Positions 1,295 through 56,539 of a stretch of DNA of 64,000 nt are shown here, in pieces. A program made the position numbers and the translations under genes. This DNA comes from Defluviitaleaceae bacterium (lineage in GTDB: Bacteria > Bacillota > Clostridia > Lachnospirales > WQUN01): NCBI GenBank assembly GCA_009781725.1, contig WQVF01000009.1, positions 1-64,000 on the forward strand, read 5' to 3'. The notes below the pieces were generated by a model, which did not search any database, was not told the origin of the DNA, and was given only the letters and a program-made list of their open reading frames with translations. How positions within the stretch are numbered: position 1 is the first letter of the stretch; each line of letters opens with the position of its first letter.

Positions 1295-1342
1295 AGGCCT
1301 CCAGCTCCTTACACCTGTCCCCTACTCTGGCAGGAAATAATA

Positions 1343-1406
1343 GACCTTTTCGGAAATCCACAAAACAACTTGACATCAGCTTGTTTTGTGGGTTTCTAAA
1401 GGGGGC
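1343..1406. repeat. dispersed ~70-nt hairpin, divergent copy C
   Basis: This is an imperfect inverted repeat: a left arm with GACCTTTT and ACAAAACAA, then a centre, then GCTTGTTTTG and a right arm. It shares the central motif (AACTTGA..., then GCTTGTTTTG) and the GACC/CTTTT outer end with two closer copies at 44515-44584 and 55159-55228. It lies between the acetyltransferase and the flavoprotein gene. A role as terminator or mobile remnant is possible. Confidence 0.6.
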
Positions 1407-1426
1407 AAATCAAGGATGGTGTTTCT

Positions 1427-4279: not shown

Positions 4280-4429
4280 TGGGGCTGTCACGTTAAGAAT
4301 GCCGTAATTTCAAGGCTCGTCATCCCGGATTTAATCCGGGATCCCACTATCATTGTCGAAAGACTAAGGGGATCCCGGGGCAAGCCCGGGATGACGGGCT
4401 TTTTATTACTTCTTAACGTGACAGCCCCA
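4280..4429. mobile_element. MITE-like element with 20-bp perfect terminal inverted repeats
   Basis: The ends read TGGGGCTGTCACGTTAAGAA and its exact complement at 4410-4429. The 150-bp element has no open frame of note. Inside it is a second inverted repeat (CGTCATCCCGG at about 4318 against CCGGGATGACG at about 4396) that is similar to the palindrome at 45007-45077. Long perfect terminal repeats on a short non-coding body suggest a non-autonomous transposable element mobilised in trans; no transposase is in the window. Target-site duplication is not clear. Confidence 0.7.
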
Positions 4430-5312: not shown

Positions 5313-5376
5313 GTCATTGCGAGCAAAGCGAAGCAATCTAGGGAGCTCTGGGTTGCTTCGCTTTGCTCGCAATGAC
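5313..5376. repeat. GTCATTGCGAGC-type dispersed palindrome
   Basis: Perfect 24-bp arms (5313-5336 and 5353-5376) start with GTCATTGCGAGC and surround a 16-bp centre. The same type occurs at 12811-12890. Such 'CATTGCGAG' palindromes are widespread intergenic repeats in many bacterial phyla. Here the repeat is open in frame with radA and would give a false N-terminal extension. Confidence 0.9.
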
Positions 5377-41442: not shown

Positions 41443-41590
41443 AAAGAGCCTGGGATGCTCGATAACCTATTATTTTGAACCTACAGACGCAAAACGGGAG
41501 TCCAAGACTCTTGGTCTACGCCGTGCCGCGAAATTGGCGGAAGGCGGTCGCCTGGATGCGGACACCCACCTAGCCATTGGCTAGGTGTCA
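41443..41590 (+). ncRNA. ssrS: candidate 6S RNA (SsrS)
   Basis: A ~150-nt non-coding stretch driven by a near-consensus promoter. It contains GATGCTCG, then CCTATTATTTTGAACC, which I recall as typical of 6S RNAs from Clostridia, then paired G/C-rich segments, and ends in a hairpin ACCTAGCC-att-GGCTAGGT (41568-41586). 6S RNA mimics an open promoter and sequesters the housekeeping RNA polymerase in stationary phase. No T tract follows the last hairpin, so the exact 3' end is uncertain, and the RNA may be cut from a longer transcript reaching the sigma factor gene. A covariance-model search was not possible. Confidence 0.6.
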
Positions 41591-41671
41591 AAATATGGGA
41601 CCGACATTCTGGGTTTATTTTTGCCCATACTACAGACATATGTTTTTTTGATATACGAAAGGGATTTACCC

Positions 41672-42246: not shown

Positions 42247-44487
42247 TTACCCCGGTGGGCTTTCATCATGAAGCCGATTGACTGCGGTTATTGCATAGTA
42301 ATAATCCCCTACCCCCTCTGGGTCGGGGATTTTCCATGTGTAGTAGGTTTGCCCAGGGAGCGCGGGCACAATAGCTACAATATTTGCAGGATTGTTTATA
42401 TTAATCTTCTCGTGGGCAGAGCGATAGATTACAAAGTATCTGGGCATAACAAGTTGGCATATGCTGGTTTCTGTGTTCTCCCAGGAAATGAAATGGTCTT
42501 CAATTACCACATTCCCTGGGCGGGAAGGCGCAGTTCCTCCCAAATGGGGCATGGATGGTACAAGAGCGGGATATCTCCACATGCTGCCTCGTAGATTTTC
42601 CATTGTGGTTCTCATACCATGCCCCCTGCCAGGGCGCATATGATTTTGTGCGAAAAACATCGAACCACTAATATTAGGATGCCCAAGATTGTAAGCCTCT
42701 TGACGCAGCAAAGTACGCATACCCTCATACTCATATCCCGGTGAGTTACGCCATTTGGCAGGGACATTGACCGTGTCATGGCGGTAGAGGTTATCCATCC
42801 GATACAAGCCAATACCTATAAACAACTGGGCATTTGTGTACTCTCCCTGGCTGTTGCGCAAATGGCCATCCGGGCCGAAGTCATGAAATAATCTGGCCCA
42901 CCATTCGGCAATTACCCCATATGGTGCGGTATTATGGGCCCAGTCCCAGTAAATTTGTGGGGTAAGATAGTCAATAAGGTTCTCTATCACCCATCTTCGG
43001 GTATCCGCAAAAGATGTATGGTAATTGGACCATGTAGTTGTGGATGCGGAGCCTGTGCCGGCATTGTAGCCACCGCCATCCAGTCCGGTATTGCCTTCTT
43101 GGGCCGACTTCCAGACACCTCCCGGGCTTATGCCAAACTTCACCCACGGTGCCGCTTCACGTATGGCTGCTCCTACGTCTCGTATCATCATTTCGGTGTT
43201 CTCTCTGCGCCAATCTGCCCGGCCTTGAGGTGTATCCGGAAAAGCAATTCCTGATATCCAGTTATGCTCCGGGCTGTTATACCGGACAAAGCTGTCTGCA
43301 ATAGGAAATCCTTCTGGATAGAAATAATCATCAAAATGCACAGCGTCAATATCGTAGTTATTCACTACCTCTAAAACCCGACTGACAATCCAATCCCTAA
43401 CCCCAGGGGCAGCTGGGTCCACAACATAGCGGTTTTCACCAATTTTTACATAATCACCAAAAAGATAAAATGCCGTATCAGGAATTTGCGACCATTCCTG
43501 CCTTATTTGTGCAAGACTGGTGACATACTCCCCTGTGGAAGACAAAACAATCCCGCGATAATTTCCAACAGTGTGAGTAATACGATATGGATTGAACCAC
43601 GCATGAACCTCAATATTCCTGGCACGGGCTAGTTTTATGACATATTCCAGGGGATCAAATTCTATGCCCTGGGAATCAAGCAAGACTCCAGTAAAATTGG
43701 TTTCCCCAGTAAGCCACGCCGACCATGGCGAAATATTTGAATTGAAAAAAGCATCCCCTGTGGGACTTATTTGAAATACCACTGCGTTGAACCCTAAATA
43801 GGCGATTTCATCAAAACGCTGGCGTAGTTCGTGTTTTTGCATATCCACATGCTCAGGGGTTGTTCCCCGAGCATCCGCAGATGGCCAATCAATATTCAAA
43901 ACAGTTGCAATCCAAGCTGCTCGTAAGTGACGCTTTTGTGGTATATCTTCGCCATAAGCAATTGTTGCCAAGAAAGGGCGGTATCTATCACCAGGGTCAA
44001 TCATAGCATTGCGGAAATTTTCTATGGAATGCCGCAAAGTGGTGATATGCTCTAGTGCCTCGACATCAGTTATGTTGGCTCCGGCCTCTGCCATCAAGCC
44101 CTGAACTTCTCTAATCGCAGCATAAAAAATCATTATATCTATGTGTACATGTCTACCTAGTCGGATATTACCGCCTTCCTCCTGGGCCCAATTGAACCTG
44201 CTCCAGGCGTAATCTATTAAAGCCGCCAGTTGCTCAGCATAGGTTAATTCTACTGGGGCATATTCAGGCAAAAACCGCCAAACCGTCGTTGCTTCAGGCA
44301 CCTCGGTTTCGCTGCTTAGGTGTGGGGCAGGTTCAGCCAGGGTGGGTTCATATTCGTTGTGAGAACTATCTTCGTCTAATGTAATGTGGGTATAAGGCGG
44401 TTCAGTTTCCTGATTGTTAATTACAACGAATACGGCAATCCCTATCGCAACCACCAGAATCGCCAAAATAATAAAATATTTTTTCAA
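42247..44487 (-). CDS. family 10 glycosylhydrolase-like protein (GHL10, DUF187), membrane-anchored
   Basis: 746 residues. A signal anchor at about 4-24, an acidic/Pro-rich linker, a small helical region (~85-165), then the GHL10 TIM barrel from 'RAAWIATVLNIDWPS' at about 186-200 through 'GFNAVVFQISPTGDAFF', 'VHAWFNPYR', 'YDIDAVHFDDYFYP' and 'GISPGGVW'. A fibronectin-like C-terminal segment ends it. The family likely cleaves glycans, possibly in the cell wall. The TTG start at 44487 is 6 bases after AAGGAGAA. Confidence 0.9.
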   Translation of the reverse strand: MKKYFIILAILVVAIGIAVFVVINNQETEPPYTHITLDEDSSHNEYEPTLAEPAPHLSSETEVPEATTVWRFLPEYAPVELTYAEQLAALIDYAWSRFNWAQEEGGNIRLGRHVHIDIMIFYAAIREVQGLMAEAGANITDVEALEHITTLRHSIENFRNAMIDPGDRYRPFLATIAYGEDIPQKRHLRAAWIATVLNIDWPSADARGTTPEHVDMQKHELRQRFDEIAYLGFNAVVFQISPTGDAFFNSNISPWSAWLTGETNFTGVLLDSQGIEFDPLEYVIKLARARNIEVHAWFNPYRITHTVGNYRGIVLSSTGEYVTSLAQIRQEWSQIPDTAFYLFGDYVKIGENRYVVDPAAPGVRDWIVSRVLEVVNNYDIDAVHFDDYFYPEGFPIADSFVRYNSPEHNWISGIAFPDTPQGRADWRRENTEMMIRDVGAAIREAAPWVKFGISPGGVWKSAQEGNTGLDGGGYNAGTGSASTTTWSNYHTSFADTRRWVIENLIDYLTPQIYWDWAHNTAPYGVIAEWWARLFHDFGPDGHLRNSQGEYTNAQLFIGIGLYRMDNLYRHDTVNVPAKWRNSPGYEYEGMRTLLRQEAYNLGHPNISGSMFFAQNHMRPGRGHGMRTTMENLRGSMWRYPALVPSMPHLGGTAPSRPGNVVIEDHFISWENTETSICQLVMPRYFVIYRSAHEKININNPANIVAIVPALPGQTYYTWKIPDPEGVGDYYYAITAVNRLHDESPPG

Positions 44488-44514
44488 GGGGATTCTCCTT
44501 TAGATTCATGTATT

Positions 44515-44584
44515 GGACCACTTTTGGAATAGGGAAAACAAGCTTGAAGTTCAGCTTGTTTTGTCCTATTTCAAAAGTGGTCTA
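44515..44584. repeat. dispersed 70-nt hairpin, copy A
   Basis: GGACCACTTTTG..AATAGG..AAAACAAGC pairs with GCTTGTTTTG.CCTATTTCAAAAGTGGTC around a short loop. It is nearly identical in length and sequence to copy B at 55159-55228; a divergent copy C is at 1343-1406. It lies in the divergent region between the GHL10 and CotD-like genes. Confidence 0.85.
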
Positions 44585-44674
44585 TTGCGTAATTATACCA
44601 CTTTCAGCAAGAACCATAATCCATGTCCCGCATAATATGTAAGCAAGTACCAAAATTGCGAAGGAGATATGAAC

Positions 44675-44980
44675 ATGAATTGCACTTGCAACGAAGGCTG
44701 CAACAGATGTGGCCACGAACCTGTTATTAGAGAGGTATTTAATTGCCCCGGCTCACAGCGGATTATCAAGCATGAGCATGTAATAAGACATCAACATGAC
44801 ATCATACATGAGTTTGATGTCATCCATGAGCATGAGTTCAACACTCATGATGTCGTAAGGGAACGCGAAGTGGTAAAGCATAATGATTGCAGAACACATG
44901 AGCCGAATTATTGTAGTGATGATTGTAGGCCACAACCAAGCAGACCAGTAAGACCACGTTTTTGGAGTGCCCGCCGCTAG
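44675..44980 (+). CDS. His-rich CotD-like spore coat protein
   Basis: 101 residues, without signal or membrane segment. The N-terminus is Cys-rich ('CTCNEGCNRCG'), the middle is a repetitive His/Glu/Asp/Ile stretch of HEH, HQH, HEF and HEHEF type (about 30-70), and the C-terminus is Arg/Pro-rich. This composition matches the CotD family of inner spore coat proteins. AAGGAG lies 8 bases before the ATG at 44675; the ATG at 44669 is too close to it. If right, the organism or its ancestor sporulates. Metal binding is an alternative role. Confidence 0.65.
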   Translation: MNCTCNEGCNRCGHEPVIREVFNCPGSQRIIKHEHVIRHQHDIIHEFDVIHEHEFNTHDVVREREVVKHNDCRTHEPNYCSDDCRPQPSRPVRPRFWSARR

Positions 44981-55139: not shown

Positions 55140-55158
55140 TGATATTCCTCAATTCATT

Positions 55159-55228
55159 GGACCTCTTTTGAGATAGGGAAAACAAGCTTGAAGTGCCGCT
55201 TGTTTTGCCCTATTTCAGAAGGGGTCTA
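55159..55228. repeat. dispersed 70-nt hairpin, copy B
   Basis: GGACCTCTTTTG..ATAGGG.AAAACAAGC pairs with GCTTGTTTTGCCCTATTTC.GAAGGGGTC. It starts one base after the FkbM stop and ends 19 bases before the next start, so it lies inside the glycan operon. It is very close to copy A at 44515-44584. Confidence 0.85.
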
Positions 55229-56539
55229 TTAGTATACTTCTGCAATTAGCTCTGTATCCGTTATTATCGATCCGTTAAGTGCCTTGTGAATCTTGAATTT
55301 ATAGCCCAAATCCCAGCTTTCGATAATAGGTTTTATGTTATAAAAATCATTCGCATTATGATACAGGCTGATAATCAATGTTGGTTTTTGGCTCATAATG
55401 GTTTTTTTTGCACCTTCAAGAACTCTTTGCTCTGCACCTTCTACATCTATTTTAATAAGACCAACCTGTATGTTCCCCTCTTTTACAAAATCGTCTATCA
55501 CCATTATTTCAACAGCTTCTGTAGATTCATCTGGGATGGTGACTTCTTTACTTCCTAGTCCCCTACCAACAAAACTAAAGCTCCCATGGCCTTTTTCTGC
55601 TCCTAGTGCAGCATTGTACACTACTACATTTGGCAAATTATTGAGACTTATGGTTTTTTCTAACAGCATAAAACTTGAACTCATAGGCTCGAAACAATAA
55701 ATTGTTTCGTCGGTCCATTTTCGAAATATCTGCAAAGAATCCCCGATATATGCACCGGCATCAATTATAGATTTGTCAGCAATGCAGTCCAAATTACGGA
55801 TATAGTCCATGCACATTTTATCCAGGAACATTGCCGGCAAAAAAACATTAGCCGGTAAAATAAACTCGCCCATGGAATAGCATGTGTCTGATACTCTGTA
55901 AATATTATTACCCAGTAATTCACGTTGCATTTTTAATCCATGCTGCTCGGCTTCAGTAAATAAGTCAATCTCACCCTCGTCTTGATTTATCAATTCTAGT
56001 CTCGTATGAATTTGGGTGACCACACGGCGGCTTTCTGCGTCCAAACCCGACACCAACTTGAGATATATTTCCTCGAAATCATGACGCTTTCTATATTCCA
56101 AAAAACCATCCAAAACCTCATGGTCGAAAGAAGTCTTGATATTTTTGTAGAATATCCGCGATTGGGTATTACGTTTGACTTGCGTTTTTATATGTTTTAG
56201 TTCGGTTATGATATTCGATAAAGCTTTTTTGCTCTCGTTTACATGTGACTCATATTGCAGGTTATATTCTTGTATGTTTTTATTAAACTCATCTATTTTC
56301 ATTTCCGTTTTAAGTTCACTATTATGGAACAATTTTGCTATTTCACATCTATCCTCTATCAGCTTACCTACTAGATGTGTATGTTTGCTCGCCGTCTCTT
56401 CATCCAATTGCCTCAATCTATTCAATATTTCTAAATAGAGCGCATCCAGCTCATCCAACCTCTGATTGAGCTTATGCACGGAAAAATGAAATGCTTTCGC
56501 GGAAGGAGGGAATATGCGACTAAGTATTTTTTTAACCAC
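55229..56539 (-). CDS. FkbM family methyltransferase with N-terminal coiled coil
   Basis: 436 residues. The first ~125 are charged and heptad-like ('KLNQRLDELDALYLEILNRL'), a probable coiled coil. The C-terminal ~200 form a SAM-dependent FkbM domain: 'SIIDAGAYIGDSLQIF' (motif I, about 250-265), 'IYCFEPMSSSF' (motif II), 'IQVGLIKIDVEGAEQRVLEGA' as its hallmark KIDVEGAE. It should O-methylate a sugar of the glycan. GTG start at 56539, overlapping the upstream gene by 8 bases. Confidence 0.88.
   Translation of the reverse strand: MVKKILSRIFPPSAKAFHFSVHKLNQRLDELDALYLEILNRLRQLDEETASKHTHLVGKLIEDRCEIAKLFHNSELKTEMKIDEFNKNIQEYNLQYESHVNESKKALSNIITELKHIKTQVKRNTQSRIFYKNIKTSFDHEVLDGFLEYRKRHDFEEIYLKLVSGLDAESRRVVTQIHTRLELINQDEGEIDLFTEAEQHGLKMQRELLGNNIYRVSDTCYSMGEFILPANVFLPAMFLDKMCMDYIRNLDCIADKSIIDAGAYIGDSLQIFRKWTDETIYCFEPMSSSFMLLEKTISLNNLPNVVVYNAALGAEKGHGSFSFVGRGLGSKEVTIPDESTEAVEIMVIDDFVKEGNIQVGLIKIDVEGAEQRVLEGAKKTIMSQKPTLIISLYHNANDFYNIKPIIESWDLGYKFKIHKALNGSIITDTELIAEVY

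Follow-up and report, generated by a model that had tools for sequence, protein, structure and literature searches.

Prokaryotic MITEs such as RUP, Correia and MITEAba12 are short, non-coding and mostly intergenic elements, which have terminal inverted repeats (TIRs) and target duplications and may fold in mRNA (review PMC10969869). All of these features are also present in the element described here. REP/REPIN sequences, which are associated with RAYT transposases, are short extragenic palindromes in many copies (PMC2817692, PMC3116915), and the present element is a multicopy short extragenic palindrome as well. No description of it was found in a literature search. The original prediction left its nature between a non-autonomous, REP- or MITE-like element and a structured RNA.

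Results

Three intergenic hairpins of ~70 nt had been predicted in the window (the whole 64,000-nt stretch of DNA analysed), and all three were confirmed. Copy A (44515..44583) and copy B (55159..55227, from sequence and covariance model) are both on the minus strand, which for copy A is the reference orientation of the family (AGACC...GGTCC). As predicted, they are alike in length (69 bp each), and they are 89% identical by blastn. The diverged third copy, placed originally at 1343-1406, was located at 1342..1407 by covariance model (E=1e-9). This copy C is a 66-bp variant with a GAAATCCAC core on the plus strand, opposite in orientation to copies A and B. The three copies fold far below their shuffles (z -5.1 to -10.9), and none of 200 dinucleotide-matched shuffles folded as well.

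Each copy is flanked in the sequence by an unstranded 3-bp target-site duplication, which is ATT for copy A (44512..44514 and 44584..44586) and copy B (55156..55158 and 55228..55230), and AAT for copy C (1339..1341 and 1408..1410). The boundaries of the element are best set by this duplication; the copies were real, but the predicted ends at 44584 and 55228 had each taken in 1 bp of it. The genomic contexts were as first described, with copy A between divergent ORFs (42247-44487 on the minus strand and 44669-44980 on the plus strand) and copy B inside an operon, between two co-oriented genes on the minus strand. The end motif RGACCTCTTCNGAAATA has seven matches in the window with up to 3 mismatches (0.73 expected), five of which are ends of copies A, B and C.

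The genome-wide covariance-model search proposed originally did find further copies. The model, built from 27 copies, gave 107 strand-wise hits in the 3.35-Mb genome, which collapse to 53 places (E<=4.4e-5). With copy A as query, blastn gave 46 hits in the same genome, palindromic doubles on both strands counted. Without the duplication, the element is mostly 68–69 bp long (63–72 bp across the 53 copies), has no coding capacity and is too short for a transposase. It consists almost wholly of terminal inverted repeat (AGACCTCTTCTGAAATAGGG...), with arms of ~30 bp that nearly join at the loop, and forms a palindrome that contains a loop and, at GGGC/CCC, an asymmetric bulge. The family consensus is AAT-AGACCTCTTCTGAAATAGGGCAAAACAAGCTGCACTTCAAGCTTGTTTTCCCTATTTCNGAAGAGGTCC-AAT, and at least two subfamilies can be told apart by their GAAATAGGG and GAAACCCAC cores. 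By a rough ORF-based call, most copies are intergenic, and the neighbouring genes of the 47 classifiable copies are in tandem for 25, divergent for 19 and convergent for 3. Such positions leave room for an effect on 5' regions, and the same distribution would arise if AT-rich promoter regions were favoured for insertion.

With the same covariance model, no complete copy of the hairpin was found in 37 other genomes of the bacterial family, which indicates that the interior is private to this lineage among the genomes compared. The weak hits in those genomes were set aside, being partly elements with the same outer ends and partly chance palindromes. The exact pattern GACCTCTTCNGAAATAGGG had five hits in 84,980 public species genomes (own species possibly not included), about the number expected by chance and none showing the element, and had no match in viral contigs.

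The flanking triplets, aligned by the element ends, are identical in 37 of the 53 copies. When the right-hand triplets were shuffled among copies, the mean was 12.5 and the maximum 25, so that the observed number was never reached in 20,000 trials. The identical triplets are AAT (16), ATT (14), AGT (3), TTT (2), ACT (1) and ATA (1). An ANT triplet stands on both sides of 38 of the 53 copies, and the two sides agree in 34 of these 38 (13.7 expected; none of 20,000 permutations gave as many). A repeat of 4 bp is present in just 13–14 copies, about a quarter, and therefore the duplication is 3 bp. The exact duplication is absent from 16 of the 53 copies, which is attributed to decay.

One copy (C34:5216-5290) is flanked by an rsmB-like gene and a prpC-like (PP2C-phosphatase-like) gene, both named from their sequence. 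Two genomes of the same genus have this gene pair with a shorter gap. In one of them (G032) the orthologous intergenic site reads CTAT-AAT-ATAG, in wider context ...AAAACACTACTAT-AAT-ATAGCAATTCC and CACTACTAT-AAT-ATAG. The own genome has CTAT-AAT-(element)-AAC-ATAG, or ...AAACACAACTAT-AAT-(element)-AAC-ATAGTCTC, with the left flank CACAACTAT; the right-hand duplication, AAC, has one mismatch. The single triplet without the element in G032 is the expected unoccupied site. This comparison covers one locus, where the genes are 66–75% identical to their orthologues.

The same ends were also found in other genomes of the bacterial family. The end motif matched about 200 ends in G028, 68 in G017, 44 in G032 and 14 in G033, and the reversed-pattern controls gave one match in G028 and none in the own genome (G000), G017, G032 and G033. 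The MITEs of these sister species have the same termini and other interiors, with lengths of 112 bp in G017, ~100 bp in G028 and G032 and ~89 bp in G033, and many copies are flanked by equal ANT triplets. Sister-species elements at L105 (G020), at L107 and its relatives (G032) and at L097-L103 (G028) are double hairpins whose two ends differ, one being AGAGTTCTTCTGAAAT and the other AGACYTCTTNCGAAAT. At L122:1501-1969 (G032), two sister-species MITE ends are spaced 469 bp apart and enclose a short gene start (ATGATGAGTAACTACGACGA); the locus may be a cargo-carrying element or a pair of fragments.

Neither DDE_Tnp_1 (PF01609) nor DDE_Tnp_4 (PF13359) was detected in the own genome, a 94%-complete draft of 109 contigs. 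The partner transposase is therefore lost, foreign or unassembled, and its identification relies wholly on other genomes. An autonomous partner in the same genome would help the assignment, but a MITE does not need one. Complete IS elements came from a protein search of 295 genomes in the order. One of these, on L147, is an 883-bp IS, ATT-AGACCTCTTGCGAAAT...ATTTCGCAAGAGGTCT-ATT, whose ends flank an IS5 transposase. The transposase is in two overlapping frames, which match HTH_Tnp_4 (2.6e-18) and DDE_Tnp_4 (3.3e-21), and its parts score 88.7 and 109.8 bits against transpos_IS5_4. Another complete element (L151) is 896 bp long and is flanked by AAT at either end. Of the 16 positions of the MITE end AGACCTCTTCTGAAAT, 14 agree with the L147 end and 2 differ. 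The likeness of MITE ends to IS ends is limited to about 16 bp, so the comparison stops short of deriving the MITE directly from a particular IS. In G001, ends of the form AAT-AGACCTTTTCGGAAAT continue to the edge of their contigs, and a transposase-like ORF (MRKYESVIKLNDIQFKRLTGV) starts at one of them. The damaged transposase of G001 (L136/L156) was rejected as the partner, its ends being related but not matching.

In both complete elements (L147:1063-1962 and L151:976-1890), the IS5 transposase is split over two overlapping frames at an A-run after an ...ERP motif. This arrangement suggests programmed frameshifting.

Other elements were seen in the window and the genome. A second MITE-like family of ~150 bp with ends GGGGCTGTCACGTTAAG is represented at 4280-4429 of the window and at L053:1176-1330, L033:1190-1342 and L017:1228-1375; the L033 copy is nested within an arm of a hairpin MITE. 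Solo arms (GGACCTCTTCCGAAATAGGGAAA) without a second arm occur at L051:1328, L052:905 and L053:1044, and all of them stop close to GGGAAA. They have no partner end within several kb and no shared interior, and the idea that they are ends of a long autonomous element was dropped on these grounds. They may have arisen by loss of one half of a palindrome. The window also contains an inverted repeat (GTCATTGCGAGCAAAGCGAAGCAATC) at 5313-5376, which is 93% complementary and resembles a sequence inside a repeat at L031, and a 6S RNA gene at 41444-41619 (Rfam RF00013, 53.7 bits).

Discussion

Dispersed copies, shared ends, the ANT duplication, one empty orthologous site, and ends and duplications of the same type on complete IS5 elements were all seen directly. 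The hairpins are very probably MITEs mobilised in trans by a DDE transposase of the IS5 family (HTH_Tnp_4 + DDE_Tnp_4 type, NCBIfam transpos_IS5_4). The non-autonomous, MITE-like side of the original prediction is thus borne out by the 53 dispersed copies, the TIRs, the 3-bp duplications and the empty site. We infer that the MITEs were moved by an IS5 transposase with double-strand cut-and-paste chemistry. The transposase would bind the 16-bp ends RGACCTCTTCNGAAAT, excise the element by double-strand cuts and place it into a short target of the form ANT (AAT, ATT, AGT or ACT), which would then be duplicated. The absent partner would be an IS5 element of ~0.9 kb with ends AGACCTCTTCNGAAAT. The MITE folds as a hairpin because two terminal inverted repeats are joined head to head across a loop of ~8 nt. 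Since no such transposase was found in the own assembly, the family is now either immobile or reliant on a transposase copy that the assembly lacks or that came in only for a time.

The compensating changes between the arms, noticed originally in copies A and B, hold up when the whole family is considered. Among 29 pairs in 48 copies, 1149 cells have the commonest pair, 58 have two-sided changes, 65 have one-sided changes and 110 are non-canonical; the shuffles gave a mean of 14.3 two-sided changes and a maximum of 31. Part of this excess comes from the common ancestry of subfamilies whose palindromic cores differ, and therefore compensating change alone is no evidence of RNA function here. 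Template-switch correction of quasi-palindromes is a possible further source. There is a small chance that the MITEs have taken on a second role across the genome, as mRNA 5' hairpins or as processing sites, in which case the two-sided excess would come from in situ selection on the palindrome or from its correction by template switching. This idea follows from their preference for positions immediately before gene starts.

A conserved structured RNA or cis-regulatory mRNA element, whose fold is kept by selection, is very unlikely as the explanation of the family itself. The strong fold of each copy tested, the two-sided changes above shuffles and the bias toward gene starts agree with it, but an inverted-repeat MITE folds anyway and the target duplications imply transposition. 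In addition, the neighbours of the copies are unrelated genes, one copy is missing from the orthologous site of a congener (G032), and the non-canonical and one-sided cells indicate decay of pairing. No Rfam family matched the hairpins at the gathering score, the sole match in the window being the 6S RNA. The MITE half of the original alternative stands, and the RNA half is unnecessary for the data. The hairpins can be explained without programmed regulation.

Single-strand Y1 systems are not known to make a target duplication, whereas 3-bp target duplications together with long TIRs are marks of a DDE transposase system. This bears on REP/REPIN-like elements moved by TnpA-REP (RAYT, Y1 HUH) through single-stranded hairpin intermediates, a reading that is hardly tenable here. 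Numerous, mostly intergenic copies of a short palindrome with an asymmetric bulge and a loop would suit it, but it is contradicted by the clear 3-bp duplications, and the same type of end bounds IS elements with DDE transposases. The linked TnpA-REP transposase that had been suggested was not found either, as no Y1_Tnp protein (PF01797) was detected in the own genome while control genomes were positive (5/14). Bidirectional intrinsic transcription terminators can be practically dismissed, in line with the original view that these are not simple terminators: the inner stem of copy A (AAAACAAGCTT/AGCTTGTTTT) scores as terminator-like, but copy B has no such hit, convergent genes surround just 3 of 47 classifiable copies and many copies lie upstream of starts, and terminators would not be expected to be alike in sequence along all 69 bp and to have duplications as well.

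With the family read as an IS5-type MITE, a mystery hairpin is resolved as a transposon relic, for which exact boundaries, a target rule and the type of transposase can be given. The same 16-bp ends surround unrelated interiors in different species of the bacterial family, with up to about 200 matched ends per genome, and thus each lineage has apparently constructed a MITE of its own from a common set of ends. The family offers a tractable case of how a MITE originates and persists without a resident transposase. In annotation, such hairpins should not be labelled as terminators or ncRNAs.

Compared with REP/REPIN sequences, the present element differs in having target duplications and DDE-type ends, in a genome where no Y1 transposase was found. 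Its terminal AGACCTCTTNNGAAAT and ANT duplication are those of an IS5-family IS (HTH_Tnp_4/DDE_Tnp_4, NCBIfam NF033581 transpos_IS5_4), as seen on L147, but the MITE has no open reading frame, is 66–70 bp long instead of ~0.9 kb, and has an inner sequence that occurs in none of the IS examined. The ISL2 group of IS5 makes a 3-bp ANT duplication (ISfinder). ISL2 and IS1031 are the candidate subgroups for the MITE ends, and the ANT duplication is ISL2-like. Unlike prokaryotic MITEs in general, the present element is practically one uninterrupted 69-bp palindrome, and we consider 69 bp small for a MITE. The hairpin family is a small, almost perfectly palindromic MITE of the IS5 type and a new member of an ordinary transposon class.
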